64,000 nucleotides of DNA, taken from Planctomycetota bacterium. Its GTDB lineage: Bacteria; Planctomycetota; Phycisphaerae; Phycisphaerales; SM1A02. The DNA lies in assembly GCA_009926625.1 (NCBI GenBank), contig RFON01000010.1, positions 1 to 64,000 on the forward strand, read 5' to 3'. This document shows positions 2,491 to 58,738 of the stretch, piece by piece (the first letter of the stretch is position 1; the number at the start of each line of letters is the position of its first letter). The position numbers and the translations under genes are program-made. Under the pieces are notes generated by a model. That model made no database searches, was not told where the DNA came from, and was given only the letters and a program-made list of their open reading frames with translations.

Positions 2491-3711
2491 TCAGTTTCGC
2501 GCGGGTGATCCCGACGCAGTCCGCATGCGAATCGTTTCAGGCATCGCTCGGATGCCATCGAGCAGGGCCGGGTCGCCGATCGGTTCAACATCAAGGATCA
2601 CATAGCTCGTCGAGGGATTCGACTGCAGGTATTCCGCGTTGATGTTGACGCCCGCCTTCGCAAGAAGGGTGTGCATGGTGCCGAGCACGCCCGGCACATT
2701 GCGATGGACATGCAGGATCCGCAGTTGCCCCTCGCGCAGCACCGGCAGGTCGACCTGCGGAATGTTGACGCTGGTTTCGGTCGACCCGCGTTCCCAGAAA
2801 CGCGCGAGCTTCTCAGCCACTTCCACTGCGATCAGTTCCTGCGCCTCCTCCGTCGATCCACCGATGTGCGGTGTCAGGATCGCCGTTGTGCACGCTTGCA
2901 GCGGGGAGTGAAAACGATCGCCCGCCTTCGCTGGCTCGTCGGGGAAGACATCGAGCGCCGCGCCGCCGAGTCGACCATCCTGCAGTGCCGCGGCGAGCGC
3001 ATCGGTATCCACGACACTGCCGCGCGCGTTGTTGATCAGGAACGCGCCGCGCTTCATCATGGCGATCTGGGCGGCGCCGATCAGTCGGGCGGTCAGTGGC
3101 GTTTCCGGCACATGCAGCGTGACGCAGTCCGCTTCGCGAAGCACCGACTCCAGCGATGGCCGCGGTGATGCATTTCCGAGCGGCAGTTTTCGCAGCACAT
3201 CATGGAAAATCACCCGCATGCCGAGCGCCTCCGCGAGGACGCTGACCTGCGAGCCGATGTGGCCATAGCCGATGATCCCGAGCGTTCGGCCGCGCACCTC
3301 GTGGCTGTTGGCCGCGGATTTGTCCCATTGGCCCGCGTGCAGCAGCGCAGACTTCTCGAAGAGCCGCCGAAAGAGGCAGACCGCTTCGGCGACCGTCATC
3401 TCTGCCACGCTGCGGGTGTTGCTGAACGGTGAGTTGAATACCGCCGTGCCGGATGCCGCTGCGGCCGTCAGATCAACTTGATTCGTTCCGATGCAGAAGC
3501 AGCCGATGGCCAACAGATGTGGGGCGCCCGCGAGATCCGCCGCGCGCAGTTCCGTCTTGGAGCGAATGCCGACGACATCGGCGCGGGACAGTGCTTCACG
3601 CAGCGCGCTGCCTGCGAGCGCGCCCGGCGCACGGTGGACCGTGAATCCAGCTTCGACGAGCGCGGCATCCGCCGCCATGTGTATCGACTCAAGCAGCAGT
3701 GCCTGCGGCAT
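2491..3711 (-). CDS. serA: D-3-phosphoglycerate dehydrogenase
   Basis: The first enzyme of serine synthesis: it oxidises 3-phosphoglycerate to 3-phosphohydroxypyruvate with NAD. The 406-residue product has the length and order of the E. coli-type enzyme: a split substrate domain, a Rossmann NAD-binding segment (GYGHIGSQVSVLAEALGM), the catalytic His in LTPHIGGSTEEAQ, and a C-terminal ACT domain (NVPGVLGTMHTLLAKAGVNI) that normally binds serine for feedback inhibition. The start at 3711 (MPQALLLES) fits the family; an ATG at 3732 would add seven residues. It follows map by 38 bases and precedes the prolyl oligopeptidase by 25 bases, all on one strand. Confidence 0.93.
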   Translation of the reverse strand: MPQALLLESIHMAADAALVEAGFTVHRAPGALAGSALREALSRADVVGIRSKTELRAADLAGAPHLLAIGCFCIGTNQVDLTAAAASGTAVFNSPFSNTRSVAEMTVAEAVCLFRRLFEKSALLHAGQWDKSAANSHEVRGRTLGIIGYGHIGSQVSVLAEALGMRVIFHDVLRKLPLGNASPRPSLESVLREADCVTLHVPETPLTARLIGAAQIAMMKRGAFLINNARGSVVDTDALAAALQDGRLGGAALDVFPDEPAKAGDRFHSPLQACTTAILTPHIGGSTEEAQELIAVEVAEKLARFWERGSTETSVNIPQVDLPVLREGQLRILHVHRNVPGVLGTMHTLLAKAGVNINAEYLQSNPSTSYVILDVEPIGDPALLDGIRAMPETIRMRTASGSPARN

Positions 3712-3749
3712 CGCGCGCAGCGTAGCGAACACGCTTCACGGACGGCGCG

Positions 3750-4571
3750 TCAGCCGACCACATCTGGAAGGCGAAAGAGCCCCTCTGTCAGGTTCACCGG
3801 TCCCTCATCGGTGATCAGCACATCCGCCTCATAGTGAACGCTCAGTGATCCGTCGGCAGTGAAGATCGGCCAAGCGTTCCCCTCGCTGCTCGTCTCGGTC
3901 GAACTGACCGCGATCATCGGCTCGACGGCAATCAGCATGCCAGACTTGAAGGTGGACCACGCCTCACTCCACTCGCCTGGAAAACTCGGCACCACATTCG
4001 ACACAAATGGTGCCTCGTGCAGGGTGCGGCCGTAGCCGTGGCCGCCGAGTCCGCGCACGAGGCAGAAGCGACACTCGCCCTCGACATGCCCTTGCACCGC
4101 GCGCGCCCAGTCGACGAGTGGTCGTCCGACCACCATCGCCTTCACGCCGCGGCGCAGACTCTCCTTCCCGCACTCCATCAGCGCATGGGCGAGTTTGTCG
4201 CCGCCGCGCACGAGGAATGTCCATGCGGCGTCACCGATGAAGCCGCGGTGGCGAACGCCGATGTCGACCGACAGAAGGTCGCCAGCCTGCAGGGGACGGT
4301 TCGTCATGTCGTGCGTGCCGTGCACGACGCAGGCGTTCACGGAGAGGCAGGAGTGGCTGGGGAAGGGTGGATGTCCGCGCGCGCGGTAGCCGATGAAGCA
4401 CGATCGGCAGTCGAGCTTTTCAAGCGTGTGACCGACGAACGCATCGACCTCCGCGAGCGTCTGCCCTTCACGCAGGAATCCCGCGAGCGCCTCATGCGTT
4501 TGGACAACGCAGTGTGCGGCTGCGGTGGCGGAAGCGATGTCCGACATCGAGCGTTGCATGGAAGGGCGCAA
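3750..4571 (-). CDS. map: Type I methionine aminopeptidase
   Basis: Removes the initiator methionine from nascent proteins in the cytoplasm and uses two metal ions. The 273-residue product shows the family's metal ligands: Asp in LLSVDIGV, Asp in FIGDAAWTF, His in GGHGYGRTLHEAP, Glu in VEPMI and a last Glu in VHYEADVLIT. The family usually has Gly-His-Gly-Ile-Gly before the His; here the third position is Tyr (HGYGR). The start at 4571 lies only two bases after the stop of hutI, so the two are probably cotranscribed. Several in-frame Met codons in the first ten residues leave the exact start open. Confidence 0.9.
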   Translation of the reverse strand: MRPSMQRSMSDIASATAAAHCVVQTHEALAGFLREGQTLAEVDAFVGHTLEKLDCRSCFIGYRARGHPPFPSHSCLSVNACVVHGTHDMTNRPLQAGDLLSVDIGVRHRGFIGDAAWTFLVRGGDKLAHALMECGKESLRRGVKAMVVGRPLVDWARAVQGHVEGECRFCLVRGLGGHGYGRTLHEAPFVSNVVPSFPGEWSEAWSTFKSGMLIAVEPMIAVSSTETSSEGNAWPIFTADGSLSVHYEADVLITDEGPVNLTEGLFRLPDVVG

Positions 4572-4573
4572 GG

Positions 4574-5815
4574 CTAGCGAAGCTTCGCATCGACGCGCAT
4601 GCCGCGAGCGAAGACAGCCGAGGGGAGCGCACCGCTCACCTCGAAGGCGAGTGCGCGCTCATCGCGGAACGGCCAGAGCACGACATCGGCGCTCTTGCCA
4701 GCCGTCAGCGAACCGCACTCTCCCTGCACGCCGAGCACGCAGGCGGCGTTCCAGATGCAGGCGATGAGTGATTCGCTTGGCGTGAGGTGGAGATGCCGCA
4801 CCGCGAGCGCGATGACGAGCGGCATGCCGCGCACGGGCGCACTGCCAGGATTGGCGTTGGTCGCGAGCGCCAGGGCAGCGCCTGCATCGATGAACTCGCG
4901 GGCGGGCATGAACGGCGTGCCGAGGCAGAACGAAGTGGCAGGCAGCCCGACCGCCACCGACTCGCTGTTGGCGACCGCCGCGATCTCGGCGTCGCTGCAC
5001 GCCTCGAGGTGGTCCAGGCTGACCGCACCAAGCGCAGTGGCGCGCTCCACCATGCCAAGGGAATGGAACTGGTTCGTGTGAACGCGCAGCGGGGAGCCAA
5101 GCGCGCGCGCGCGTTCGAAGTAGGCCGTGCAGTCGGCTGCGCTCCACGCGCCCTGCTCGCAGTACGCATCCGCCGCGATGCCGGGCATCAGCGCAGCCGC
5201 CGCGGGAAGCGTCTCGTTGATGGTGCGCGCCACGAAGTCAGGCTGCGCCGCATCGATCGCGTGCGCTCCAAGGAAAGTCGCGGCGATTCGCTGCGGTGTG
5301 AGCGCACGCGCTGCGGCAATGGCACGCAGCATCTTCAGTTCGCTCTCTGTGTTGAGTCCGTATCCCGATTTCACTTCGACCGTGGTGGTGCCGGAAGCAG
5401 ACATTTCGAGAAGTCGCTGCACAAGCAGGGCGGTCAGGTCGTGTTCCGTTGCGGCGCGCACGGCACGAACCGTGGACATGATCCCGCCGCCTGCGGCAAG
5501 GATGTCCAGATAGGAACGCCCCGCAAGTTTCGCCTCCCACTCGTCGAAACGGTCGCCAGCCCAGCACGCGTGCGTGTGGCAGTCCACGAACCCTGGCGTG
5601 ACGACGCACCCCTTGGCATCCATCGTTTCGCAGCCATTCGGCAGCGAGATCGGGTCGCCTGCACCGACCACCGTGATCCGATCGGCATCCCAGACGATGT
5701 GCCCGCGCTCGATGACGGCAAGATGCGCTGTCGTCGGGCGACGGATGGGTGCGCGCGAGCCGCCTGCAGGATGCATCGTGACCAGTCGCGCGTTCACGAT
5801 TGCCGTGGCTGCCAT
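4574..5815 (-). CDS. hutI: Imidazolonepropionase
   Basis: Third step of histidine degradation: it hydrolyses imidazolone-5-propionate to N-formimino-glutamate. The 413-residue amidohydrolase shows the metal-binding VDCHTHACWAGDR motif, GGGIMSTVRAVR, the strand EVKSGYGLN, TFLGAHAID and HTNQFHSLG, in the order known for HutI. The frame is open upstream to 6037, but that part is antisense to sixA. ATG 5815 (MAATAIVNARLV) is the natural start, 25 bases from the divergent sixA start. No other hut gene lies in the window, so the rest of the pathway must be elsewhere. It heads the hutI-map-serA run. Confidence 0.9.
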   Translation of the reverse strand: MAATAIVNARLVTMHPAGGSRAPIRRPTTAHLAVIERGHIVWDADRITVVGAGDPISLPNGCETMDAKGCVVTPGFVDCHTHACWAGDRFDEWEAKLAGRSYLDILAAGGGIMSTVRAVRAATEHDLTALLVQRLLEMSASGTTTVEVKSGYGLNTESELKMLRAIAAARALTPQRIAATFLGAHAIDAAQPDFVARTINETLPAAAALMPGIAADAYCEQGAWSAADCTAYFERARALGSPLRVHTNQFHSLGMVERATALGAVSLDHLEACSDAEIAAVANSESVAVGLPATSFCLGTPFMPAREFIDAGAALALATNANPGSAPVRGMPLVIALAVRHLHLTPSESLIACIWNAACVLGVQGECGSLTAGKSADVVLWPFRDERALAFEVSGALPSAVFARGMRVDAKLR

Positions 5816-5840
5816 GCGCGCAAACGGTACCGTAGGACCG

Positions 5841-6362
5841 ATGCGGCTCTTCGTCGTTCGACACGCGCGCGCTGAGGAGCGATCCGAAACGCATTTCACC
5901 GACGATTCACTGCGACCGCTGACCACGCAGGGCAGTGATGAGTTCGCGCGGCTCGCGCGACGCGTGGCGCGTTCGTGGGACGCGCCCGCACTGGTCCTCG
6001 CGAGTCCGTTCGAGCGGGCGTGGGCGACAGCGCGCATCCTCCGCGACGAAGCGAAGTGGCCGAAGGCACTGCGCTGCGAGGCGCTCGAGGCGGATCACGC
6101 GGGTGGCATCGAGGCTCTGGAGCAGGCGATCGTCGAAAGTGTTGGCGAGTCGCTCGCGCTTGTGGGTCATGAGCCGATCTTGAGCGAACTCGTGAGCCAC
6201 CTGCTTGGAACCGAGTTACCGAGCGTCGTGATGCGCAAGGGGGCCGTGGCGGTCCTCGATGTGGCGCTCACGCTGCGCAGTGCGGGGGACATGCCAGGGC
6301 TTTTCGGCAGTGGAACGCTGCTTGCGCTCGCGGATCCGCGTGCGATCGGCATTCGCGAGTGA
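5841..6362 (+). CDS. sixA: SixA-type phosphohistidine phosphatase
   Basis: A small (173 residues) histidine phosphatase of the phosphoglycerate mutase-like superfamily. The N-terminal RLFVVRHARAEE gives the catalytic RH motif, and LVGHEPILSELVSHLL gives the second conserved His. SixA proteins dephosphorylate phosphohistidine on phosphotransfer proteins such as ArcB or PTS components; the substrate here is unknown. The start ATG 5841 lies 25 bases from the divergent hutI start and has AGGA five bases upstream. The next gene downstream codes a STAS protein 51 bases away; this hints at signalling, but no shared operon is proven. Confidence 0.85.
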   Translation: MRLFVVRHARAEERSETHFTDDSLRPLTTQGSDEFARLARRVARSWDAPALVLASPFERAWATARILRDEAKWPKALRCEALEADHAGGIEALEQAIVESVGESLALVGHEPILSELVSHLLGTELPSVVMRKGAVAVLDVALTLRSAGDMPGLFGSGTLLALADPRAIGIRE

Positions 6363-6413
6363 GGTCGCAGCCGCCGCGAAACCGCTAGACTCTGCGGCGA
6401 TCGAAGGCACGCC

Positions 6414-6800
6414 ATGACGACACGCGAAGAACCCACCGTCAAGAAGACTCAACTGCTCGAAACAATCTGGGACGGCGCCGTGCTCATCGCACGACCTGCG
6501 GGTCCGAACATTGGGCAGCGCGAGGCGCCCATCGTGGCACAGGATCTGGATCCGATCATGAAGGATGCCGGCAAGAAGATGAAGTTCATGGTGCTCGACC
6601 TCTCGGCGGTCCAGTTCATGAGCAGCATGGGAATCGGTACCTGCATCAACAGCCGCAACGCAGCCGCCGCGCTCGGCGCCAAGCCCGTGCTTTACGGCGC
6701 AAACAAGGAACTGCGCAACCTGCTGTCGATGATGAAGATCGACAAGCTCTTTGCGATCGTCGAGTCGCGCGAGGCGCTCAACAAACTCGTCGGCTACTGA
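6414..6800 (+). CDS. STAS-domain protein (anti-sigma-factor antagonist-like)
   Basis: A single STAS domain of 128 residues. The core has VLDLSAVQFMSSMGIGTCI, which is the region where SpoIIAA-type anti-anti-sigma factors carry the phosphorylatable Ser; here SS is in that position. Such proteins bind a partner kinase or anti-sigma factor and release it when phosphorylated. No kinase or phosphatase partner is adjacent. The end of the gene lies three bases from the convergent ChaN-like gene. A non-sigma role, for example in a stressosome-like or lipid-transport complex, is equally possible. Confidence 0.8.
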   Translation: MTTREEPTVKKTQLLETIWDGAVLIARPAGPNIGQREAPIVAQDLDPIMKDAGKKMKFMVLDLSAVQFMSSMGIGTCINSRNAAAALGAKPVLYGANKELRNLLSMMKIDKLFAIVESREALNKLVGY

Positions 6801-6803
6801 TCG

Positions 6804-7784
6804 CTACCGATCCGCCGCGCTCGCCCGAGTCATCACGGTCACATCGGCGCCTGCGTTCCAGTCGGCGTTTGGGGGAAGCGTCCCACCAGGGTCGAGTTGC
6901 ACCACCAGCACCCGCGCATCGGGGCACAGCCGCGTGAAGATCGCTGCGGTGCCGAGGCGCCGCTGAACATGGAATGCGCCAACGAGGTGGATGAACGGCG
7001 TTCCAGATTGCCATGCCCGTGCGAGCGAAGTCGCCATGGTGAGATCCCACACGCGCTGCGAGCGGTGCACGGCATCGACCTCCTCATCGGTCGGGACATC
7101 CGCCTCGGCGCCACCTTCTTTGGAAGCGTCTGACCGCATCTCGATCATCAACACGCGAAGGCGTTCCCAGTCGCCGTCGCGAGTGATCGCGGCGTCGGCC
7201 TCGAACAGCACACGCTCCGCGGGCGGCAGGTCGAGAAGCCCATCCGTGCCATCGCGGAAGGCCTGCGACACGAAGCGGCGTGGTGCGTTCGCGGCGATCA
7301 CCGTGCCGCCGCGCGACCGTGCCGCATCGATCGACGGTTGGTACCACGGAAGCCATGAATCCTTCCCAGCCCAGTCGCGCGACTTCGTCTGATCGATGAA
7401 GTCGTCCAACGCCAAACATCCAGCGAGATAGTCATCGACCGCGTCCTGATCGTCGCGTTCGAGCATCTCGAGACCGACTGCGCCGCTTGGATGTGCATCG
7501 AGGAAAGCAGCCACCAGCGCGTGCTGCGCCTTGTGCGCGACCGCGTCGTCATGCGTCTCCCCAACGAAAACAGCATCGGCTGCACGAACGCGCAGCAGGA
7601 GTTCATCCCAACTGATGGCTGCGCCGGTGGCACAGTCGATGGTTGGGCAGGACTGAGGTGCACGCGCTGCGTTGAACGCCTCGCGTGGGGTCGGCGCCGC
7701 AGTGCAACCGCCGATCAACACGGCGACAACAAACCGCCGCGCCGAGCGCAGAAAGTCGGCAGTGCGAGTGGAGTGGCGCGTCAT
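6804..7784 (-). CDS. ChaN-like haem-binding lipoprotein
   Basis: A 326-residue protein with a signal sequence ending in a lipobox-like VLIGGC, so it is likely a lipoprotein. The body starts with VFVGETHDD, typical of the ChaN/DUF399 family. Members bind haem, and one is linked to iron uptake in Campylobacter. Other family motifs seen are GLEMLERDDQ and VHLVGAFHV-like residues near the end (FIHLVGAFHVQRRLG). The start ATG 7784 is chosen because the signal peptide begins there; the longer frame is antisense to dinG. The gene converges on the STAS gene. A function in haem or iron handling is inference from the family only. Confidence 0.75.
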   Translation of the reverse strand: MTRHSTRTADFLRSARRFVVAVLIGGCTAAPTPREAFNAARAPQSCPTIDCATGAAISWDELLLRVRAADAVFVGETHDDAVAHKAQHALVAAFLDAHPSGAVGLEMLERDDQDAVDDYLAGCLALDDFIDQTKSRDWAGKDSWLPWYQPSIDAARSRGGTVIAANAPRRFVSQAFRDGTDGLLDLPPAERVLFEADAAITRDGDWERLRVLMIEMRSDASKEGGAEADVPTDEEVDAVHRSQRVWDLTMATSLARAWQSGTPFIHLVGAFHVQRRLGTAAIFTRLCPDARVLVVQLDPGGTLPPNADWNAGADVTVMTRASAADR

Positions 7785-7899
7785 ACGCACTAGCCTATGC
7801 CCGTGGAGAATGCCAAGGTGTGCCAGTGGACAGTTGCGATGCGCGGTGTCTTCCTCGCGGTGAGGGGCTGATGCAGCGAGCAAAGGGGATGGAAGTCGC

Positions 7900-9966
7900 G
7901 TGGGGCTGAATCCGCAGACCGCACTGATGCTTTCCGACTCGGGCCCGCTCGCGCGGCGACTGGGAGGCTTCGAGCAGCGGCCGCAGCAGATCGAGATGGC
8001 GGCGGCAATCGAGCGCTGCCTTGAACGCAAAGGGCGGCTGATGGTGGAAGCGGGAACAGGCGTTGGCAAGAGTTTCGCCTACCTCGTTCCAGCCATTGCG
8101 CGCGTGGTGCAGCGGCGCGAGCGCGTGCTCATCTGCACAAACACCATCGCACTGCAGGAGCAACTGGTCGACAAGGACATTCCGCTGCTGCAAGCGGTCC
8201 TGCCAGAGGAATTCTCGACGGTGCTCGTCAAGGGACGCAGCAACTATGTGTCCCTGCGGCGACTGCGCATGGCGGTGCAGCGGCAGGAACGCCTCCTGCC
8301 CGTCGAAGATGATCGCCATGCGCTTGCGGCGGTGGAGTCCTGGGCGCAAGACACCGTGGACGGCAGCACCGCGTCGCTTCCAGTGCTGCCACCGCACGGC
8401 GTCTGGGAACAGGTGCAGTCGGACGCGGGGAACTGCATGGGGCGCCGCTGCCCAACCTACGACGAGTGCTTCTACCAGCGAGCGCGCCGCCGCATGGAAG
8501 GCGGTGATCTCCTCGTCTGCAATCACGCGCTCTTCTTCAGCGACCTCGCGCTGCGCGCAGGGAGCGGTCGCGGCTTTCTTCCGCCGTACCAGCATGTCAT
8601 TCTCGACGAAGCGCATGCGATCGAGGAGATCGCGGCGGACCACTTCGGCGGATCACTCTCCGAGAGTGCGCTCGCGGGACTGCTGCGCACGCTGTGGAAC
8701 CCAGCCGTGGCGCGCGGTGTGCTCGGGAATGTGTCGCTGCGCGACGGCGGCGACGAACTTCTGCGATCTGCCCTGCGACATGTGGAAACGGTGCGCGGTG
8801 CGGCGCTCGCGTTCTTCGACGAGTGGTGGCAGTGGCGGGGCGGCCAGCCGGGCGAGGGAGAGTGCCGCATTCGCACGCCTCGGGCGATCGACGATCACTT
8901 GACCGCGCCGCTGCAGGAACTCGCGGCCACACTGCAGTTGGTGCGCGAGCGTGCGGCGGATGACTCTGTTGCGCAGGAAATCAGTGGACTCGCGCAGCGC
9001 GCATCGTCGCTGGCCGCAGCCTGTCATGCCTTGGTGACGCAGTCGCTGCGCGGCTGTGTGTACTGGATGTCGACGGCAATGAAGCGCCGCGGACGCTCAA
9101 GTGCGAGGCCGGACATCACGCTGACCGCGGCGGTGGTCGATGTCGCACCTGTCCTTGGCGAGCACCTCTTTGCGCAGGATGTCTCGGTCGTGCTGACTTC
9201 GGGAACGCTCGCCACCGTGCGCGGCGACTGCTCTGCATCGGCGCGAGCGCTCGGGATGCAGGATCCCGAAGTGCTCACGCTCGGCAGTCCTTTCGACTAT
9301 GCGCGTCAAGTGCGACTGTTCATCGAGGCGGCAGTGCCTGATCCTCGGGAATCGACGCACTTGGAGGCACTGGCTGCTCGCATCGAGTGGCATGTTGCTG
9401 AAACCGATGGTGGCGCGTTCGTGCTCTGCACGAGTTTCCGCGCGCTCCAGGAACTGGTTGAGCGCACGGAACCGTGGATGGCAACGCACGGCTATGCGGT
9501 GCATGCGCAAGGTGCCGGCGTGCCGAATGCGCTGCTGCTGAAGCGCTTTCGCGAGAGCAGGCGCAGTGTCCTCTTCGGCGTCGCGAGCTTCTGGCAGGGG
9601 ATCGATGTACGAGGCGATGCGCTCCGAAATGTCATCATCACGCGGCTGCCATTCGAGGTTCCCGATGCGCCGCTCGTGCAGGCGCGCTGCGAGGCAATCC
9701 GCGCACGCGGCGGGAACGCGTTCGCCGAGGATTCGCTGCCGCGGGCGATCCTGCGTTTCCGCCAGGGCTTCGGGCGCCTCATCCGTTCAGCCACCGACTC
9801 CGGCCGCGTGGTCGTGCTCGACCCGCGCATCGTTGGCAAGTCCTACGGGCGGCAGTTCATCGAGGCGCTTCCAAGCGGCATCGACATCCGCATCATCGGT
9901 GCGGACGGCGAGGAGATTCCATTTGATCCCGACGAACTGCAGCGCGACTTCGAGAGCGGCACCTGA
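7900..9966 (+). CDS. dinG: DinG-family ATP-dependent DNA helicase with Fe-S cluster
   Basis: A superfamily 2, XPD-like helicase of 688 residues. Walker A is VEAGTGVGKSFAY, the DEAH box is VILDEAHAIEE, and the C-terminal part has LFGVASFWQGIDVRG and the arginine-rich QGFGRLIRS motif VI. Cysteines in CMGRRCPTYDECFYQ and a further Cys in LLVCNHALF fit the 4Fe-4S cluster of this family. The start is GTG 7900 after AAGGGGAT; an ATG at 7927 is possible. DinG proteins unwind DNA with 5'-3' polarity and resolve R-loops and damaged forks. The gene converges on the DUF1501 gene, with a hairpin over both stop codons. Confidence 0.88.
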   Translation: MGLNPQTALMLSDSGPLARRLGGFEQRPQQIEMAAAIERCLERKGRLMVEAGTGVGKSFAYLVPAIARVVQRRERVLICTNTIALQEQLVDKDIPLLQAVLPEEFSTVLVKGRSNYVSLRRLRMAVQRQERLLPVEDDRHALAAVESWAQDTVDGSTASLPVLPPHGVWEQVQSDAGNCMGRRCPTYDECFYQRARRRMEGGDLLVCNHALFFSDLALRAGSGRGFLPPYQHVILDEAHAIEEIAADHFGGSLSESALAGLLRTLWNPAVARGVLGNVSLRDGGDELLRSALRHVETVRGAALAFFDEWWQWRGGQPGEGECRIRTPRAIDDHLTAPLQELAATLQLVRERAADDSVAQEISGLAQRASSLAAACHALVTQSLRGCVYWMSTAMKRRGRSSARPDITLTAAVVDVAPVLGEHLFAQDVSVVLTSGTLATVRGDCSASARALGMQDPEVLTLGSPFDYARQVRLFIEAAVPDPRESTHLEALAARIEWHVAETDGGAFVLCTSFRALQELVERTEPWMATHGYAVHAQGAGVPNALLLKRFRESRRSVLFGVASFWQGIDVRGDALRNVIITRLPFEVPDAPLVQARCEAIRARGGNAFAEDSLPRAILRFRQGFGRLIRSATDSGRVVVLDPRIVGKSYGRQFIEALPSGIDIRIIGADGEEIPFDPDELQRDFESGT

Positions 9967-9984
9967 AGCACACGGGTCAGGTGC
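9959..9984. terminator. Inverted repeat spanning two convergent stop codons
   Basis: GCACCTGA at 9959-9966 is the exact reverse complement of TCAGGTGC at 9977-9984, with a 10-base loop. The TGA of dinG and the TGA of the DUF1501 gene each lie in one arm. There is no T-run, so it is at best a weak or bidirectional terminator or an RNA-stabilising stem. Confidence 0.4.
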
Positions 9985-11266
9985 GCAGGATCGGCAGCGA
10001 GTCGTAGCGGGTGCCGAGCACCTTTGCCGAGCATCCCTTGCCTGGCGCGCTCAGCCAACGGTCCATGAGTGTTGCATAGACGCTGCGGAAATCCGTGGTG
10101 AATCGAAGGTCGCCATCGTCGAGATCCGTGAGCGATGGATGCGTGCCGTGCACGTCGGCCTTCACCTGCGTTCCAATCAGGAACATCGGTGCCGCGGTGC
10201 CGTGATCCGTGCCGCCGGACGCGTTCTGGCGAACACGCCGGCCGAACTCGCTGAAGACCATCGTGATGACGCGGTCCTCGTTGCCCTGTGCCTTCATGTC
10301 GTTCTGGAAAGCGCGGAGCGCCTCACCGACTTCGCGCATCAGGTTTCCGTGGGTGCCGGCCTGTCCACCGTGCGTGTCGAAGCCGTTGATCGATGCGTAG
10401 TACACGCGCGTCTTCATGCCGTCTCGGATCATGGCGCCGATGGACTGCATCTGTCCAGCGAGCTTCGTTCCGGGGTACTCCACCAGCGGCGACTTCGCAA
10501 TCGCCGCGCGCACGCGGTCACTCGACAGCTGCGCATCCAGCGCGGTCCGCATCAAGAACGCAGCCTGTGATCCCGGGTCGACCCCCTCGAGCGGCCCCGC
10601 GCGATTCGTGGCGTCGTAACCAGCAGCCAGACCGCCCGTCAGTTCCTTGCCGCTCCACTGATACAGGCGCGCATTCTCGAACGACACTGGATTGGCCTTC
10701 GCACCCATCATCGCCAGCGGCGCACTGCGACCGATCGCCACCTCAGCGTCGGCGGCTGGGGAACCGTTGCAGGAACAGTCGATGTAGCGGCCGATCCAAC
10801 CGTGATCGCGGCCTCCAGGCTTTCCCGTGTGCCAAATGTCCATCGACGCAAAGTGCGAACGATTTGGGTTGGGATAGCCAACGCCTTGCACGACTGCGAG
10901 GCAACCGCGATCGAGCAGATCGCGGAAGCCGGCGAGCCGCGGGTGCAATCCGATTCCCTGTGAGTCGTCCAATTGCAGCGCGCCATCCTTCGCCGTCGGC
11001 GCGCCGATGGCGAGTGCGGGGCGAGCGCGGTGGTACGCATCGGCGCCGTACGGCACGACGGTGTTCAATCCATCGTTGCCGCCGCTGAGCTGCACCACCA
11101 CGAGGATGCGATCCTCTGGTTCGCCAGGGCGGCTTGACAGCAGAGGGTCTGGCGAGAGCATCGCCATCGCCGACTGCTGGATGAACCAGGGAAGCGTCGA
11201 TGTGAGCGAGGCGAGCGTGACGCCCTGCTGCAGGAAGATGCGGCGCGAGAAGGGGGTGTGTTCCAT
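9977..11266 (-). CDS. DUF1501 protein, Tat-type signal
   Basis: A 429-residue exported protein of the DUF1501 family, which belongs to the alkaline-phosphatase/sulfatase-like fold. The N-terminus has twin arginines in FSRRIFLQQG followed by a hydrophobic stretch, as in Tat signals. Family motifs are LSGGNDGLNTVVPY near the start and VFSEFGRRVRQNASGGTDHG near the end. The start ATG 11266 is chosen from the Tat signal; the longer frame overlaps the DUF1800 gene. It lies 35 bases after the DUF1800 gene. The two families are commonly paired in planctomycetes and other phyla; their substrate is not known. Confidence 0.88.
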   Translation of the reverse strand: MEHTPFSRRIFLQQGVTLASLTSTLPWFIQQSAMAMLSPDPLLSSRPGEPEDRILVVVQLSGGNDGLNTVVPYGADAYHRARPALAIGAPTAKDGALQLDDSQGIGLHPRLAGFRDLLDRGCLAVVQGVGYPNPNRSHFASMDIWHTGKPGGRDHGWIGRYIDCSCNGSPAADAEVAIGRSAPLAMMGAKANPVSFENARLYQWSGKELTGGLAAGYDATNRAGPLEGVDPGSQAAFLMRTALDAQLSSDRVRAAIAKSPLVEYPGTKLAGQMQSIGAMIRDGMKTRVYYASINGFDTHGGQAGTHGNLMREVGEALRAFQNDMKAQGNEDRVITMVFSEFGRRVRQNASGGTDHGTAAPMFLIGTQVKADVHGTHPSLTDLDDGDLRFTTDFRSVYATLMDRWLSAPGKGCSAKVLGTRYDSLPILRT

Positions 11267-11301
11267 ACGGCGACTCCTGGTGGTGCGGCGTCTGCGTGAA
11301 A

Positions 11302-12786
11302 TCAACAGAGCTGGTACTCGGGCAGTGCAGTGGCGAGACAGAGTGCGCGAACAAGGCGGCGATCCTCCAGCGGCCCGCCAAGCGCCTCCACGGTGCTGCG
11401 GAACTGCTCGCGGCGCGCGGAGGTTGCCTCGCACGCCAGCACGAGGTCGAGCAGCGCATCGGTATCGCGCGAACGGTCGCCCGATGTCGCTGCGTCGAGC
11501 GCAGCGCGGATCGATGCGGGGTCCCATGACCCAAGGTCGCCGCCACCCTCTGGACCGGCGCCGGTCATCAAGTAGACGAGCAGGTTCTGCCGAACGAAAA
11601 GCGTCGAGGTGTTGATCCACAACTGCCCGCCCTCCCAGCCCTTCACGCTCGGTGGCATGAACAGGCTCTGTCCCATGAGGTCGGCGGCGGCGTTCACGGT
11701 GCCCATGTTTCGCACAGGTACGCCAAGTTCGCGCACTGCGCCCACCACCAACTGGACAGGCGACTTGATCATGCAGCCGCGGTTGGCTGGGTCATGAAAA
11801 TGACGGCTGAGCAGCAGCGTCCGCAAGACAGGCTTGAGGTCGTATTGCCCATCGCGCATCTTCTTCGCAAGGGCATCCACAACCCGCATCTCACTGCGTC
11901 CAGGCATGCCCGGCGCATCGTTCACCAGTGCGCGATAGAGCTTTGCGCAGACATACAGCGACGGCTCCTTTCGCGAGAGGATGATGCGCGCAAAGTCATC
12001 GCCATTCCAATTTCCCGTGCTGCCGAGGATCGTCTTCGGTCCGTCGTCGTGCCGATTCGCCACGAAGGCAAAGGTGTCGTCATCGAACGAATAGCCGGTC
12101 AGCGCGCGCGCTCCCTCCTTGATGTCCTCTTCCGTGTAGCCGTTGCCTTCACCGAGCACGAACAGTTCCATCAGTTCGCGCGCGAGATTCTCGTTCGGTC
12201 GTCCCTTGCGGCTCTCGTCGTTGTCGAGGTACTTGAGCATCGCGGGGTCGCGGAGGATGCGCATCACGAGATCGGCGAAGTTGCCCGTCGCATGCTCCCG
12301 CATCATCTGATTCTGCAGGAACATGTGGTAGCTGTTTTCGACGCCGCGGTAGCCCGTGGCAAAGTGCCCGTGCCAGAAGAGCGTCATGCGCTCCTGCATC
12401 GGGCGCCCAGTTTCGATCATCCGCTGCATCCACCACTGCTGGATCTCACGGAGTTGTTCGCGGTCTTCGCGGTCGCGTTCGTTCCGCATCTGCTGCAACT
12501 GCTGCTGGAGCCCTTCGTCCTGCCCACGGCGCGCACGAACGATCAGCTCGCGCTCCTCCTCGGTGGGATTTCGGCGAATGTCCTTGTCGAAGGTGGAAGC
12601 AGGGATCTCGGGGGCGGGAGTTCGCTCGTACTCGAGGAGCAAGTCGACCGCGTCATTGGGCTTCATCGCAGCGAGTGTTTGCACCTGTTCAGGCGGACCG
12701 CCGAATCCGGCGCGTCGAAGCAGGTGGCGTGCCGCCGAAGCGTTCCAGTCGGAGGCGCGAATGGGTTCGAGGCTGAAGTCCGTCAT
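11302..12786 (-). CDS. DUF1800 protein
   Basis: A 494-residue helical protein of the DUF1800 family, seen from HLLRRAGFGG near the N-terminus, LFWHGHFATG in the middle, and RELMELFVLGEGNGYTEED followed by ALTGYSF. The function of the family is unknown; it travels with DUF1501 proteins, as here. The start ATG 12786 overlaps the stop of the upstream membrane-protein gene in an ATGA junction, which argues for translational coupling. The longer frame to 13095 is antisense to nothing useful and overlaps the membrane-protein gene. A 30-residue Arg/Gln/Glu-rich stretch (QQQLQQMRNERDREDREQ) is likely a charged helix. Confidence 0.88.
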   Translation of the reverse strand: MTDFSLEPIRASDWNASAARHLLRRAGFGGPPEQVQTLAAMKPNDAVDLLLEYERTPAPEIPASTFDKDIRRNPTEEERELIVRARRGQDEGLQQQLQQMRNERDREDREQLREIQQWWMQRMIETGRPMQERMTLFWHGHFATGYRGVENSYHMFLQNQMMREHATGNFADLVMRILRDPAMLKYLDNDESRKGRPNENLARELMELFVLGEGNGYTEEDIKEGARALTGYSFDDDTFAFVANRHDDGPKTILGSTGNWNGDDFARIILSRKEPSLYVCAKLYRALVNDAPGMPGRSEMRVVDALAKKMRDGQYDLKPVLRTLLLSRHFHDPANRGCMIKSPVQLVVGAVRELGVPVRNMGTVNAAADLMGQSLFMPPSVKGWEGGQLWINTSTLFVRQNLLVYLMTGAGPEGGGDLGSWDPASIRAALDAATSGDRSRDTDALLDLVLACEATSARREQFRSTVEALGGPLEDRRLVRALCLATALPEYQLC

Positions 12787-53899: not shown

Positions 53900-54154
53900 T
53901 TACCGCTCCGCCTGACATGGTCGAGGCGGGATCACCTCGTCGAAAACAACCGTCTGCGATTGGAGCATGCGCTCGATGTAGGGCTCGCAGAGTCCGCAGC
54001 CTTCCGCGCATCGAAAAGCGCTGCGCAGTTCCGCGACATCGGTGCTGCCGCAACGATCGGCGTGTGCGCGCATCTGCGCAAAGGTCACATCGACACAGAC
54101 ACAGCGGTCGATGCGCATCGTGCCCGACGGACTGTTGGCCTCATGACCGCTCAT
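53900..54154 (-). CDS. BFD-like [2Fe-2S] protein in the cobalamin-riboswitch run
   Basis: An 84-residue protein with the bacterioferritin-associated-ferredoxin-like pattern: CVCVDVTFAQMRAHA, then STDVAELRSAFRC and a closing GCGLCEPY. The four cysteines (CxC and CxxxxC-x-x-C spacing) should hold a [2Fe-2S] cluster. It starts four bases after the H-X9-DG gene and is the third gene behind the riboswitch. In other systems such domains pass electrons to ferritin or to oxidoreductases. Electron supply for corrinoid reduction is conceivable here, but only from context. A Met at 54118 is an alternative start. Confidence 0.75.
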   Translation of the reverse strand: MSGHEANSPSGTMRIDRCVCVDVTFAQMRAHADRCGSTDVAELRSAFRCAEGCGLCEPYIERMLQSQTVVFDEVIPPRPCQAER

Positions 54155-54158
54155 CGAC

Positions 54159-54950
54159 TCACCGAGGATCGTAGGCCGCGTTGTTCTGGCTCAGAAATCC
54201 GTTGCGCGGGAAGCCGAGCGGTTGTGCCAAGAATGATCCGCCCGATGCCGTCAGCGCGTGCTGTCCTTCGCACGGTGCGCAGACCGATGCCGTGTGCCCA
54301 TCGAGCCAAGCGACATTGGTGCAGCCTTGATGGCGGAACGCCTGCGCACCCGCGTAGACCACTCCCAAATCCATCTCGACCAGCGCCTCGGGCGCTCGCA
54401 TGAACTTGTTGGTGCCGCCGCTCCAACCCCCGTCGCCGAACAAAGCGGTCTGCGAAGGGCGATGATGTGCGCTCGCAGGCACTCCCAAGCGCGCGTTGCG
54501 CCAACCGCTTCGGAGCGCACCATCCTCACCCATCGATGGGTATGCCCCCTCGGCTCCGATGAACGATGTGTTGTAGTTGAAGCCTGTCGAAGGGGCATCT
54601 TCGCTGGCTGTGGGGAACGCGCAGCACGGGCATTGCCGCATTGCGTTGGGGCGGTCAGTGAACAGGCTCACTGGACCCGGCTGAAGTGCACCAGCGCCAT
54701 GCGCAAAGTCCCAGGCAGTGGTCCGCACACCAGACGCCGTCTGCTCGTGAAGAACGGCTGCTGGAAAAACGCCGCGGTAAGTGCCTGCATAGGCAATCGC
54801 CGCCACGGCGAACTGTCGCAGGCGAACAGAACACTCCGTACTCCGCCCGCTTTCACGCACGCTGCCAACCACGGGGACCAGCAGCGAAGCGAGCAGCACG
54901 AGTGCGCCGACCGTGACGAGCGACTCCACGAGAGTGAAGGCTCGCGTCAT
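54159..54950 (-). CDS. Prepilin-like protein with H-X9-DG motif
   Basis: A 263-residue protein with a type IV prepilin-like N-terminus, MTRAFTLVESLVTVGALVLL, and the motif H-Q-G...WLDGH (His, nine residues, Asp-Gly) near residue 215, typical of the large planctomycete family of DUF1559-like pseudopilins. The residue before the FTLVE cleavage site is Ala instead of the usual Gly; peptidase processing may be slower or altered. Two Cys pairs (CPCC, CAPC) could form disulfides. The start ATG 54950 overlaps the upstream stop in an ATGA junction, so it is coupled to the riboswitch-controlled gene. Confidence 0.8.
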   Translation of the reverse strand: MTRAFTLVESLVTVGALVLLASLLVPVVGSVRESGRSTECSVRLRQFAVAAIAYAGTYRGVFPAAVLHEQTASGVRTTAWDFAHGAGALQPGPVSLFTDRPNAMRQCPCCAFPTASEDAPSTGFNYNTSFIGAEGAYPSMGEDGALRSGWRNARLGVPASAHHRPSQTALFGDGGWSGGTNKFMRAPEALVEMDLGVVYAGAQAFRHQGCTNVAWLDGHTASVCAPCEGQHALTASGGSFLAQPLGFPRNGFLSQNNAAYDPR

Positions 54951-55849
54951 GTGGGACCCCACGATGCCAGCAGTTGCGTCAGGTCGCTCCCGCCGACGAT
55001 TCCGTCTCGGTCCAGATCGGTTGATGCATCGCCACTTCCAAAGGCGGACAGGAGCATGGAAAGATCGCTGCCACCGACGACCCCATTGGCGTCGATGTCC
55101 GCGGAGCGCACGCGCGGCAAGACGCGCGATACTGCATCGATCTCGACATTCGGGTGAAAGCCGCCAGGCACGACGATCCGCACGGCCACGGCGCTCGAGA
55201 GCCCGACGCTCGCGAGATCAACGCCGATGCCGCCAGCGCTGCCCGCGTAGGCATCAACCAATTGGTCGTAGTCCATCCCCTGAAGATCGGACATGACGAG
55301 CGACGGATCACAGGGCAGGTGCGGGTCCGAGGGGAATCTGCCCGCGGTCGACGAGTACGGTCCAGCATCCGTGAATGCCATCGTGGGGAAGAGCCCATCC
55401 GCGACCACATTGGGCACCGTCACCCACGCCACACCGTCCGAGCTGAGTTGGACGATTCCGCCATCGGCGGCGAGCCCCGCGCACACGCCAGTCGGCCAAT
55501 CGCCATCGGTGAAGAACGAGTTTCCAAACACGATGAGGTCGACACCGAACGGATTGTTCGCGTGGTCGACGATTGGTGGAGTGAATGCGAGCGTCAGACT
55601 TCCACCAGCACCGATTGAGACGATCTCCGCCGTGCCGAAGGCAGGCACGAACGGTGTCACCGCGCCAGGCGATATCCCTTCGCCCGTGAAGCGCTCGGGA
55701 GCACCAAGAGCGGCAGACGGATTGTTGAAGCCGTTGGCGGGATTCGTGCCGGGAACATAGGAAATCACCGAAGTCGCAAAGTCGTCGGATCGAGCGCCCG
55801 AAGCACCCGCAAGCGCGCATGCGAGAGCCAATACATGAATGCGCGACAT
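54947..55849 (-). CDS. Secreted dockerin-tailed protein under a cobalamin riboswitch
   Basis: A 300-residue exported protein with signal peptide SRIHVLALACALAGASGARS. The body (VISYVPGTNPANGFNNPSAA to VDAYAGSAGGIGVD) is strand-rich, has LTLAFTPPIVDHANNPFGVD and LIVFGNSFFTDGDWP, and ends FHPNVEIDAVSRVLP; I recall similar bodies in secreted PEP-CTERM or surface proteins, but know no function. The last 50 residues form two calcium-binding dockerin-like repeats, DIDANGVVGGSDLSMLL and DLDRDGIVGGSDLTQLL. It is the first gene after the riboswitch. Cobalamin binding or capture is plausible from the regulation alone. Confidence 0.8.
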   Translation of the reverse strand: MSRIHVLALACALAGASGARSDDFATSVISYVPGTNPANGFNNPSAALGAPERFTGEGISPGAVTPFVPAFGTAEIVSIGAGGSLTLAFTPPIVDHANNPFGVDLIVFGNSFFTDGDWPTGVCAGLAADGGIVQLSSDGVAWVTVPNVVADGLFPTMAFTDAGPYSSTAGRFPSDPHLPCDPSLVMSDLQGMDYDQLVDAYAGSAGGIGVDLASVGLSSAVAVRIVVPGGFHPNVEIDAVSRVLPRVRSADIDANGVVGGSDLSMLLSAFGSGDASTDLDRDGIVGGSDLTQLLASWGPT

Positions 55850-55944
55850 CACTGCGCGGTCCTGCGCGAAGGTCATCATGAGAATGTGTGAACGACTGGC
55901 CGCGCGCCGTGTCCCCTGAACAGACCGCGAGGGGGCGGCACAAC

Positions 55945-56145
55945 ACTGCAGGCAGGTCTTCCGACTTCGGGCACCCGAGCCTGCCTTCCCGGATTCCGCG
56001 CATGCGGCTCCAGTGGCTGTGGTGGCTCGGGCATCAGACCTCAGCGGTCTCACCCGTTACGGCGGCGCGTCCGCGGCGGATTTTCACCGCCTTCCCTCGC
56101 GCGCGTGAGTCGGGCCAGCCGATGCACGCGCACGCCTCGGCTCAC
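55945..56145 (-). promoter_or_regulatory. Cobalamin (B12) riboswitch
   Basis: Read on the minus strand, the region contains the conserved blocks in order: GGGAAGGCGGTGAAAATCC (56096-56078), CGCCGCCGTAACGG, GCCACTGG (56017-56010), GGGAAGGCAGGC (55990-55979), and the B12 box GTCGGAAGACCTGCCTGC (55965-55948). This is the adenosylcobalamin-type aptamer layout. The 5' boundary is approximate. It lies about 100 bases ahead of the gene at 54947-55849. B12 normally represses such transcripts. The expression platform is not clear; a GC-rich stem after the box could hide the ribosome site. It is on the opposite strand to the HEAT protein gene. Confidence 0.9.
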
Positions 56146-56332
56146 GAGTGCCGAGGGTCAAGCACGGGAGGAAGGCTACCTGCACGCGCCGCGACTGTCG
56201 TTCATTGCGGAAACCCACTTTCTCCGCTACTTTCATCGCTTCGACAGAGCCGGCCATGGATCGGCAGCTGGGCCGCATGAACCGTTCCGACTCCAGACCA
56301 ATGGGGTCTGCCCTCTAGAGGATCACTTCATC

Positions 56333-58738
56333 GTGTACGACCCGACCCGCAATTCACCCATTGTCGCCTGTCTGATTGCCGCACTTCACATCGGGTTCGC
56401 GTGCCCGTGCTGGGGCGATGATCCCACTCCGCCAGAGCCCGCAGGTGAACCCTCGGGTGAACCTTCCGCAGAACCCGCAGCGGAACCGCAGGATCCTCCG
56501 ATGGCAGAGGAGGATGCGGGCGGATCAGCCAACGGAGCGGAGCAGGGCGAAAGCCTCAACGGAAGTTCAGCCAATGATGCCGCCGAGGGCTCAGCGGGCG
56601 ATCCGCCCATGGCACTTTCCAGCGCTTCGGAAGCAGCAACTGCCCAGCAATCGCACGCGCTCGATATGGCGATCCACTATCTACTCATCGGGAACGCCAA
56701 TCTCGCCGCGGCGGCGTTCCAAGAACTCTTCGACTCGGGCATCACCGATGAACAGATTGCGCGCCTCGTCGACGAGCGCGGGCTTGCCGACAAGGTTGAG
56801 CGTTCGATCACTCGCGGTCGCGGCATGGAGCAATCGAACGCACTGGTGGTCGACTTTGAGACTCGGCTGCGAAACGGCGCGCGGGCGACGAGCCGAAATG
56901 CGCTGCGAATCGAGGAGTCGGTTGCTGCACTCAACGGGTCGATGCGCCAGCAGATGATGGCGCGATCACGCCTCCTTTCCGCAGGCCCTTTTGCCGTGCC
57001 TGCACTATTGAAGGCACTCGCGAACGCAAGCGACGCACGGTCGTCCAATGCGGCGCGTGCGGTCCTGGTCGACCTCAAACGGCTCGCGGTTGACCCGCTG
57101 TGTGCAGCGCTCCCGGCCGTCGATCCGACGACCCAACGGAAGATCTGCGAAATCCTCGGCGAAATCGGCTATCCGAGCGCGCAACCATTTCTGTTGGATC
57201 TGGCGGGCAAGGCTGACACGGCCGCGGATGTGCGCGGCGCGGCGCTTCGCGCCTACTCGCGTCTCGGCGGAACCACGGAAGACGCGGCAAGCCAGTACGC
57301 CGCGCTCGCGCGCCGTTACTTCGATCAAGTCCCCTCGCTCATTCCATATCCCGCTGACGCGGGAAATGTCATCTGGTCGCATGACTCCGCCGGCGGGCTC
57401 ATCGGCACCAGCGTGCCAACCCCCGTGTACTGTGAAACGATGGCGGTCCTTCTGTCGCGCAACGCGCTGCGGATCGACCCCAACTCGCAGATGGCGCTCG
57501 CCGTCTTCATCGCCGCCGACCTGCGGCGAGCCGTGCTGATGCGCTTGATGAACATGGATGTCAGCGCCGAGGAGGATTCGCTTCGTGCCGAGTTGCTGCA
57601 GCCTCGCTTTTCGCCTGAGCTGCTCGCCACTGCATCCGGATCGCTGGCCGCTCAGCTGGCGCTTGGCATGGCGCTCGATGCGAGCGATGTGCTGCTCGTC
57701 CGTGAGTGCCTGCGGGTGATTGCATTCAACAGCGGCGCATCGGCACTCGTGAGTCCGTCGAAGGGACGCTCTCCCGTGGTGGAGTGCCTTGCCTATGCAG
57801 ATCGGCGCGTCCGCTTCGACGCGGCGATCGTGCTCGCTCGCTCGCTGCCCCAGATGCAGTTTCCGCAGGACAGTTCCGTCGTTCCAACGCTGTCGTCCAT
57901 GCTTCGCTCGACTGGAATGATGGGCGCAGTGATTGCCACGACCGAAGAGGATCGGCAGTCGCTCGCTGCGCGCCTGGGTGAGGTCGGCATGTCGAGCTCG
58001 GTGACGGGCAGTTCCATCGGCGAGATCGAGGCTCGCCTCTCGCAGGGGCAGTCCGTGGATGTCCTGGTTGTCCAAGGGGCGAGCGCCGCGGTGCAGGATG
58101 TTGTCCGCGCAGCACGCTTGGCGCGGCCGACCGCGACGGCGCCTGTCGTCGTCATCGCCAATGGACAGGATGCAACGGCACTCTCGACCCAGTACGAAAA
58201 CGATTCCCGCGTGGCTGTGTTTCTCGCTTCGGCGACCAACGAGCAGTTCCGTCGGGCCATTGAGGCCGCCGCTGGAGCCGCGGGAGGACTTGCGTTGTCT
58301 GCCGAGGAAACCCAGCAATTTAGCGGTCAAGCGCTTTCGGCGCTGCGAGTCATTGCAGAGTCCGCATCGCCTGTGTTTGACATCCGAGATGCAGAGGCGG
58401 GGCTGGTGCAGGTGCTCGGAGGCGGTTCGGTGGAATCGGGAGTGGACATCTCGGGCGTCGCGATGGTCCTCGCCTTGATTCCCACGGATTCCGCCCAGCG
58501 CGCGCTGGCAGATGGCGCGCTCGCTGCATCTGGCGAGACGCAGCAGGTGCTGTTGGATGCGGTTGCCGCGAGCGCGCGAAAGTTCGGCAATCAACTCTCG
58601 CAGAGCCAGATCGCTGCTCTCAAGGCGCTGCTTCGATCGGATGATCAGGGCGTCGCCACTTCGGCAGCACATGCGTTTGGGGCGCTGGGCCTGCCGACAT
58701 CCGATGTCGTGCAGTTGATCGTTGATCCTCGCGGATGA
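56333..58738 (+). CDS. Secreted HEAT-type repeat protein with a receiver-like segment
   Basis: An 801-residue exported protein. GTG 56333 has AGAGGA about ten bases upstream and begins a signal peptide (IVACLIAALHIGFACPCWG); the longer frame to 56105 overlaps the riboswitch and is rejected. After an EP-rich linker (EPSGEPSAEPAAEP) come helical repeats (VPALLKALANASDARSSNAA, ILGEIGYPSAQPFLLDLAG) of the HEAT type. Residues about 535-640 resemble a degenerate CheY receiver: VDVLVVQGASAAVQDVVRAA then APVVVIANGQ, with the phospho-acceptor Asp replaced by Gln or Gly. Further repeats end the protein. The function is unknown. Confidence 0.75.
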   Translation: MYDPTRNSPIVACLIAALHIGFACPCWGDDPTPPEPAGEPSGEPSAEPAAEPQDPPMAEEDAGGSANGAEQGESLNGSSANDAAEGSAGDPPMALSSASEAATAQQSHALDMAIHYLLIGNANLAAAAFQELFDSGITDEQIARLVDERGLADKVERSITRGRGMEQSNALVVDFETRLRNGARATSRNALRIEESVAALNGSMRQQMMARSRLLSAGPFAVPALLKALANASDARSSNAARAVLVDLKRLAVDPLCAALPAVDPTTQRKICEILGEIGYPSAQPFLLDLAGKADTAADVRGAALRAYSRLGGTTEDAASQYAALARRYFDQVPSLIPYPADAGNVIWSHDSAGGLIGTSVPTPVYCETMAVLLSRNALRIDPNSQMALAVFIAADLRRAVLMRLMNMDVSAEEDSLRAELLQPRFSPELLATASGSLAAQLALGMALDASDVLLVRECLRVIAFNSGASALVSPSKGRSPVVECLAYADRRVRFDAAIVLARSLPQMQFPQDSSVVPTLSSMLRSTGMMGAVIATTEEDRQSLAARLGEVGMSSSVTGSSIGEIEARLSQGQSVDVLVVQGASAAVQDVVRAARLARPTATAPVVVIANGQDATALSTQYENDSRVAVFLASATNEQFRRAIEAAAGAAGGLALSAEETQQFSGQALSALRVIAESASPVFDIRDAEAGLVQVLGGGSVESGVDISGVAMVLALIPTDSAQRALADGALAASGETQQVLLDAVAASARKFGNQLSQSQIAALKALLRSDDQGVATSAAHAFGALGLPTSDVVQLIVDPRG

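Follow-up and report, generated by a model that had tools for sequence, protein, structure and literature searches.

This locus raises the question of what a vitamin B12 (cobalamin) riboswitch controls when no textbook B12 gene stands behind it. The DNA analysed is a stretch of 64,000 nucleotides (the window) from a lake planctomycete whose 2.58-Mb genome is 91% complete. On the minus strand, positions 53900-56132 hold, in order, an RF00174 riboswitch, a P13 hairpin and genes 1, 2 and 3, and the operon ends convergently with mutL, which lies on the plus strand. That the three genes are coupled, as a first-pass annotation made from the letters had proposed, was confirmed by their spacing: the start of gene 2 overlaps the stop of gene 1 as ATGA, and gene 3 begins 4 nt past gene 2. 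We believe, with a probability of about 0.85, that the operon is a riboswitch-repressed corrinoid (vitamin B12) scavenging module. This reading is based on the riboswitch with its conserved expression platform, its linkage to the genes, the BtuH fold predicted for the first product, the sequence intermediates between that product and BtuH, its Asn108, the DUF4465, CobT and CobS genes found in the corresponding runs of relatives, and the metabolic need of the host.

The riboswitch and its linkage to the genes

The B12 riboswitch that the first-pass annotation had placed on the minus strand before the three genes was recovered by Infernal. The aptamer (55934-56132, minus strand, model positions 1-189) scored 56.5 bits in cmscan (E 2.4e-11), the gathering score of RF00174 being 31.5 bits. 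A covariance-model search of the whole host genome yielded this single match above the cut-off, and a second one on contig C16 that, with 24.1 bits, was below it. The P13 hairpin (55904-55941, minus strand) lies 3' of the aptamer and 5' of the start codon of gene 1, and its L13 loop (CGCG) is able to kiss L5 (ACGCGC); it is the predicted expression platform. Among 16 same-genus sequences the aptamer core was almost invariant, and P13 pairing held in 97.5% of the cells, as compared with 37-57% when the partner was slid; two P13 base pairs were altered on both sides. Moreover, L5 and L13 changed together from ACGCGC/TCGCGA to ACGCAC/TTGCGA in two loci (L019 and L021), the tertiary pair of the kissing loop passing in step from G-C to A-U. 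The L5-L13 kissing loop and a downstream P13 hairpin, which count towards membership in RF00174 beside the covariance score, were both found, and sequence comparison indicates that together they are the expression platform expected for this riboswitch class. Riboswitches of the class turn expression off when B12 is present, and by analogy the operon would be repressed by the vitamin. On the opposite strand, an 877-residue open frame runs divergently (window positions 56105-58738, plus strand) and overlaps the riboswitch; the overlap arises only through the predicted start of this frame, which is likely over-long. Many relatives have a homologue of the frame next to their copy of the operon.

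The arrangement is conserved. Within the family, riboswitch and gene 1 orthologue could both be located in 52 genomes. In 49 of these, the riboswitch precedes the gene on the same strand at a distance of 55-892 nt (median 141), and in the other three the two elements are on separate contigs. We then searched 392 genomes of the phylum with a profile of the gene-1 domain. Of the loci that this gave outside the order, 13, from 12 genomes of other orders and classes, were analysed, picked by the domain alone with the RNA ignored, and all 13 had an RF00174 match above threshold upstream on the same strand, either adjoining the gene or at most about 1.5 kb off with another gene of the run in between. 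Since each of these several-megabase genomes carries one or two riboswitches, well under one of the 13 would be expected by chance. The same order of riboswitch and genes therefore recurs across the phylum; the contrary outcome, homologous secreted proteins that never sit behind B12 riboswitches, which had been named in the first-pass annotation as evidence against its own proposal, was not observed.

Gene 1 and the runs of related genomes

Gene 1 (54947-55849, minus strand) starts with the ATG at 55849, an alternative in-frame ATG being present at 55876, and is conserved in the family; a count of 181/181 obtained with its profile takes in dockerin-only matches and is not an orthologue count. 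It encodes a BtuH-like protein, predicted to be secreted and a putative corrinoid binder, with a dockerin-like C-terminus. The earlier description of a secreted, dockerin-tailed protein agrees with a signal peptide judged by eye, with a profile search (E 3.5e-6) and with the fold of the tail (model residues 247-297; 54953-55105, minus strand), which in VIA superposed on the type II dockerin 2Y3N over 51 residues (1.3 A, Z 8.8, on the model); the dockerin matches in Pfam and NCBIfam were under their cut-offs (NF041540, 22 bits for a cut-off of 29). As the full gene-1 profile matched calmodulin and dockerins through this calcium-binding tail, the tail was cut off for the later homology tests.

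Ahead of the tail, the protein has a predicted BtuH-like jellyroll domain (55118-55786, minus strand). An AlphaFold2 model built from 30 orthologues (pLDDT 90) gave, in Foldseek against the PDB, a single match below 1e-3, namely 8BLW_B (E 1e-6). In VIA alignments of the same model, 7BIZ was on top (Z 13.0, 144 residues, 3.2 A) and 8BLW scored Z 12.7, while the next folds were of the carbohydrate-binding type (CBM32-type), at Z 9.7 and less. The 7BIZ entry is BtuH2 (BT_1956) with bound B12, and 8BLW is the BtuG1 lipoprotein of B. thetaiotaomicron, including a BtuH domain. The aligned part of 8BLW (388-660) corresponds to its C-terminal H domain (PMC10404256). The gap of 3 Z units between BtuH and the unrelated CBM32-type folds was counted in favour of a BtuH-type gene 1. 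BtuH was not found by direct sequence match with the gene-1 profile; the connection runs through the fold and through proteins that are located behind B12 riboswitches in the same taxonomic order. One of them (L098), at the matching place in another family, matched 8BLW at E 7e-24 and 7BIZ at E 3e-20, and the group that it forms with L100 and L106, likewise behind B12 riboswitches, matched the gene 1 domain with the dockerin removed at 99.4% in hhalign (E 1.9e-21). The ligand contacts described for BtuH2 are Gln333, Asn399 (phosphate), Phe401 and Trp577 (PMC8941943), and the numbering of our 7BIZ alignment reproduces them. Asn399 corresponds to Asn108 of gene 1, which is invariant in 30/30 sequences. 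In the alignment, the Gln333 and Trp577 contacts are not retained in gene 1, an equivalent of Gln333 being kept only in the three intermediates and one of Trp577 in none, and for this reason we name the protein BtuH-like and not BtuH. Its pocket need not equal that of BtuH, and, to judge from these residues, affinity or ligand may differ. Taken together, intermediates and modelled fold point to a remote homology between gene 1 and BtuH, a proven B12 binder, and the gene 1 product is very likely a corrinoid-capture protein, in line with the surface capture of corrinoids suggested in the first-pass annotation. Two other assignments were considered for gene 1 and rejected: DUF4465/BtuJ (PF14717), for which there was no Pfam match at E up to 1, and NF033170 (the Leptospira lipoprotein LIC_13355), which matched weakly (E 0.017) and whose paper has no B12 content.

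The view that the run holds no known B12 gene is consequently correct for textbook genes but has to be amended for gene 1, and it does not extend to the relatives, where versions of the operon hold DUF4465 or continue into cobT and cobS. DUF4465 proteins were present in three such runs (L095, E 4e-55; L153; L154), and B12 binding has been demonstrated for eight distant members of this family (PMC13398666). In L145, CobT (TIGR03160, above cut-off) and CobS follow gene 2, and this run is the clearest direct operon tie to classical cobamide genes. The locus (3099-9301, in a genome from another order of the class) comprises the riboswitch, a protein with a "VGTG" start, a BtuH-like protein, a DUF1559 protein, CobT, CobS and a CobC-like phosphatase. 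Relatives' runs also hold propeller-like secreted proteins and members of a PEP-CTERM family with the "VGTG" start. In five loci (L088, L089, L091, L092 and L109), second copies of the riboswitch in family genomes precede a lone PEP-CTERM protein with a start of the type VGTGSNxAxLVIDW; this protein matched no Pfam or NCBIfam family except for the sorting signal, and is probably another exported corrinoid-related protein. In L098, L100, L102 and L106, the first gene after the riboswitch encodes a secreted protein of propeller-like look ("VLSDGRLI"), which matched no family except dockerin and is possibly BtuG-like in role.

Genes 2 and 3 and the outer-membrane gate

Gene 2 (54159-54950, minus strand) encodes a DUF1559 (H-X9-DG) pseudopilin-like protein, as first described: PF07596 scored 27.3 bits (cut-off 23.3) and the H-X9-DG motif is in the sequence. 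Its AlphaFold2 model (pLDDT 90) begins with an N-terminal helix of 56 residues and gave zero Foldseek matches in the PDB. The gene was present in 26/27 family loci, the remaining one being truncated at the end of the locus, as well as in each of the 14 multi-gene riboswitch loci from other families, which makes it the steadiest partner in these runs, better kept than gene 1. PF07596 matches number one or two per genome in the same genus and more than 10 in some larger relatives. A tree of the riboswitch-linked copies together with 19 other DUF1559 proteins required 4 label changes, as compared with 16.8 in shuffles (0/500 as low), and contained riboswitch-linked clades of 33 members (support 97/89) and 8 members (100/99), a result that denotes clustering and not a single origin. 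We consider the odds somewhat better than even that gene 2 is needed for corrinoid acquisition.

Gene 3 (53900-54154, minus strand) encodes a stand-alone protein of 84 residues with the cysteine pattern C18-x-C20...C53-x2-C56. The four cysteines expected of a BFD-like [2Fe-2S] protein are invariant, together with R17, among 18 homologues, but the PF04324 match (E 5e-5, 23.9 bits) is below the cut-off of 26.0, so that we call the protein BFD-like only. No signal peptide is evident in the sequence, and the product is thus probably cytoplasmic. As the gene was present in 13/27 family loci, and is thus missing from half of them, the operon does not depend on it for its function. To our knowledge, BFD-like [2Fe-2S] proteins have no link with B12. 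The idea that this protein supplies electrons for corrinoid reduction is a weak one, given its probable location and its irregular presence, and we regard such a role as doubtful.

The host encodes MetH (TIGR02082 equivalog, above cut-off), and CbiC was absent from it and from all 41 genomes searched (41/41), from which it follows that the host has no de novo B12 synthesis. The search for btu and cob genes elsewhere in the genome, called for in the first-pass annotation, gave a mixed result: contig 1 holds a BtuFCD-type ABC cassette (FecCD E 9e-61, Peripla_BP_2 E 1e-11), but neither CbiC nor a BtuB-like receptor was found. The cassette has no riboswitch near it and could instead be of the siderophore or haem type. 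In the textbook view, B12 crosses the outer membrane by means of BtuB and TonB. The operon lacks btuB, and the sole TonB-dependent receptor in this 91% complete genome is an Oar-like protein of 1087 residues on contig C17. By plug or barrel models, such receptors were absent in 19/41 relatives, among them three genomes (G181, G186 and G190) that are 99-100% complete, G190 being assembled as one contig, and that yet have the riboswitch and gene 1; G181 and G190 have genes 2 and 3 too (L104 and L101, respectively). Secretins and type II/IV ATPases are present. In two relatives, a BtuB-like TonB-dependent receptor is located behind a B12 riboswitch (G205, L094, about 8700-11700; G192, contig 22, about 85450-87700), which shows that both routes occur in the order. 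ExbB- and TonB-like genes accompany the receptor in L094.

Proposed route, alternatives and comparison with known systems

On the basis of these results, we propose the following sequence of events. When B12 is scarce, the riboswitch would leave the mRNA open, and when B12 is bound, L5 would kiss the P13 hairpin beside the start codon and, as judged from the behaviour of the class, lower expression. The gene 1 protein would be exported, held at the surface or matrix through its dockerin-like tail, and capture corrinoids in a BtuH-type jellyroll pocket, as its predicted fold and its Asn suggest. The gene 2 product, on account of its steady association, may be a dedicated minor pseudopilin that places the loaded binder at the envelope or hands it over. 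Tentatively, gene 3 may feed electrons from a cytoplasmic [2Fe-2S] protein to the reduction of corrinoids before adenosylation. The BtuFCD-type ABC transporter encoded elsewhere would carry them across the inner membrane, and MetH would use the cofactor. How the outer envelope is crossed is the most speculative step: a riboswitch-controlled machine of the pseudopilus/secretin type, with DUF1559 as dedicated subunit, could deliver B12 from the BtuH-like binder to BtuF without a TonB-dependent receptor, a proposal that we consider unlikely. If it is true, a TonB-free pseudopilus route would be a second, BtuB-independent way of importing B12 into a Gram-negative cell.

One may ask whether the operon acquires B12 at all. 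It could use it instead, in the manner of an isozyme switch, with a surface system that is dispensable, or gives way to a B12-dependent route, when B12 is plentiful and a gene 1 product that binds a sugar or another ligand. The gene 1 jellyroll does come close to carbohydrate-binding modules, which scored Z 9 to 9.7, and none of genes 1-3 is a textbook B12 gene. But BtuH scored 3 Z units higher than these sugar binders, sequence matches identify the intermediates as BtuH homologues, DUF4465 or cobT/cobS occur in the corresponding runs of relatives, and the operon is without any enzyme that has a B12-dependent counterpart; we thus regard the explanation as highly improbable. A narrower doubt is that corrinoid capture is correct and genes 2 and 3 are mere passengers, DUF1559 being common in planctomycetes and only co-transcribed here. 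This would fit the larger relatives with more than 10 DUF1559 genes and the patchy presence of gene 3 (13/27), but it sits badly with a gene 2 found in 26/27 and 14/14 loci when each genome of the genus holds no more than one or two PF07596 matches, and with the clustering of the riboswitch-linked copies on the tree (4 against 16.8 label changes). It is therefore an improbable explanation, if one with some weight.

A third alternative concerns the gate: as happens in Bacteroides, the gene 1 protein might load a TonB-dependent receptor, and in the host the Oar-like protein would then stand in for BtuB. The host does have one such receptor, and in G205 and G192 a BtuB-like one is found directly behind the riboswitch. 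Against it, about half of the genus, as well as G181, G186 and G190, are devoid of TonB-dependent receptors, and the only over-threshold B12 riboswitch of the host is not near its receptor, so that we find this quite unlikely. Returning to the scavenging module, its arrangement recurs across the phylum, including relatives without the usual outer-membrane gate for B12, and for this reason it suggests that the vitamin is scavenged in a manner not yet described. Our searches of the open-access literature turned up no connection of DUF1559, or of planctomycete riboswitches, with B12 uptake. The results would add a new phylum to those with BtuH-type scavenging, since a lineage without BtuB that nevertheless depends on B12 (MetH, no CbiC) retains a riboswitch operon in which a gene for a BtuH-like binder is joined by a dedicated pseudopilin gene. 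For a DUF1559 subfamily, they also offer the first candidate for a link to physiology, and they make B12 acquisition in planctomycetes a testable question.

The components of the operon resemble known ones to different degrees. The riboswitch has all the aptamer blocks of the RF00174 class and the L5-L13 kissing loop, but the genes that it controls are atypical. The gene 3 product shares the C-x-C and C-x2-C cysteines of the BFD-like [2Fe-2S] proteins (PF04324). Gene 2 is like other planctomycete DUF1559 (H-X9-DG) pseudopilins in its prepilin-like N-terminal helix and H-X9-DG end, and differs from them in forming riboswitch-linked clades and in its few copies per genome in the genus. Gene 1 and BtuH (7BIZ and the H domain of 8BLW) have in common the predicted fold of the B12-binding domain, the GG-strand, the GN motif and the phosphate-contacting Asn, but with about 20% identity and, in gene 1, without the Gln333 and Trp577 contacts and without PKD or propeller domains. 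Reports of BtuH have so far come from Bacteroidetes of the gut and from three Firmicutes, usually with btuB next to it, and btuB accompanies more than 80% of the btuH genes in a panel of 313 gut species (PMC8941943). The btu loci of Bacteroides combine BtuB-BtuG-BtuH-BtuJ with BtuFCD (PMC8941943, PMC10404256, PMC12751083). With them, the planctomycete operon shares the control by a B12 riboswitch and the exported, here putative, corrinoid binders (of BtuH type and, in relatives, of DUF4465/BtuJ type), to which some relatives' runs add a propeller-like secreted protein. In contrast, it is without btuB, the btuG lid and the ABC genes, a pseudopilin of the DUF1559 family appears to take the place of BtuB, the binder ends in PEP-CTERM or a dockerin-like tail where that of Bacteroides carries a lipid anchor, and a BFD-like protein is added to the set.
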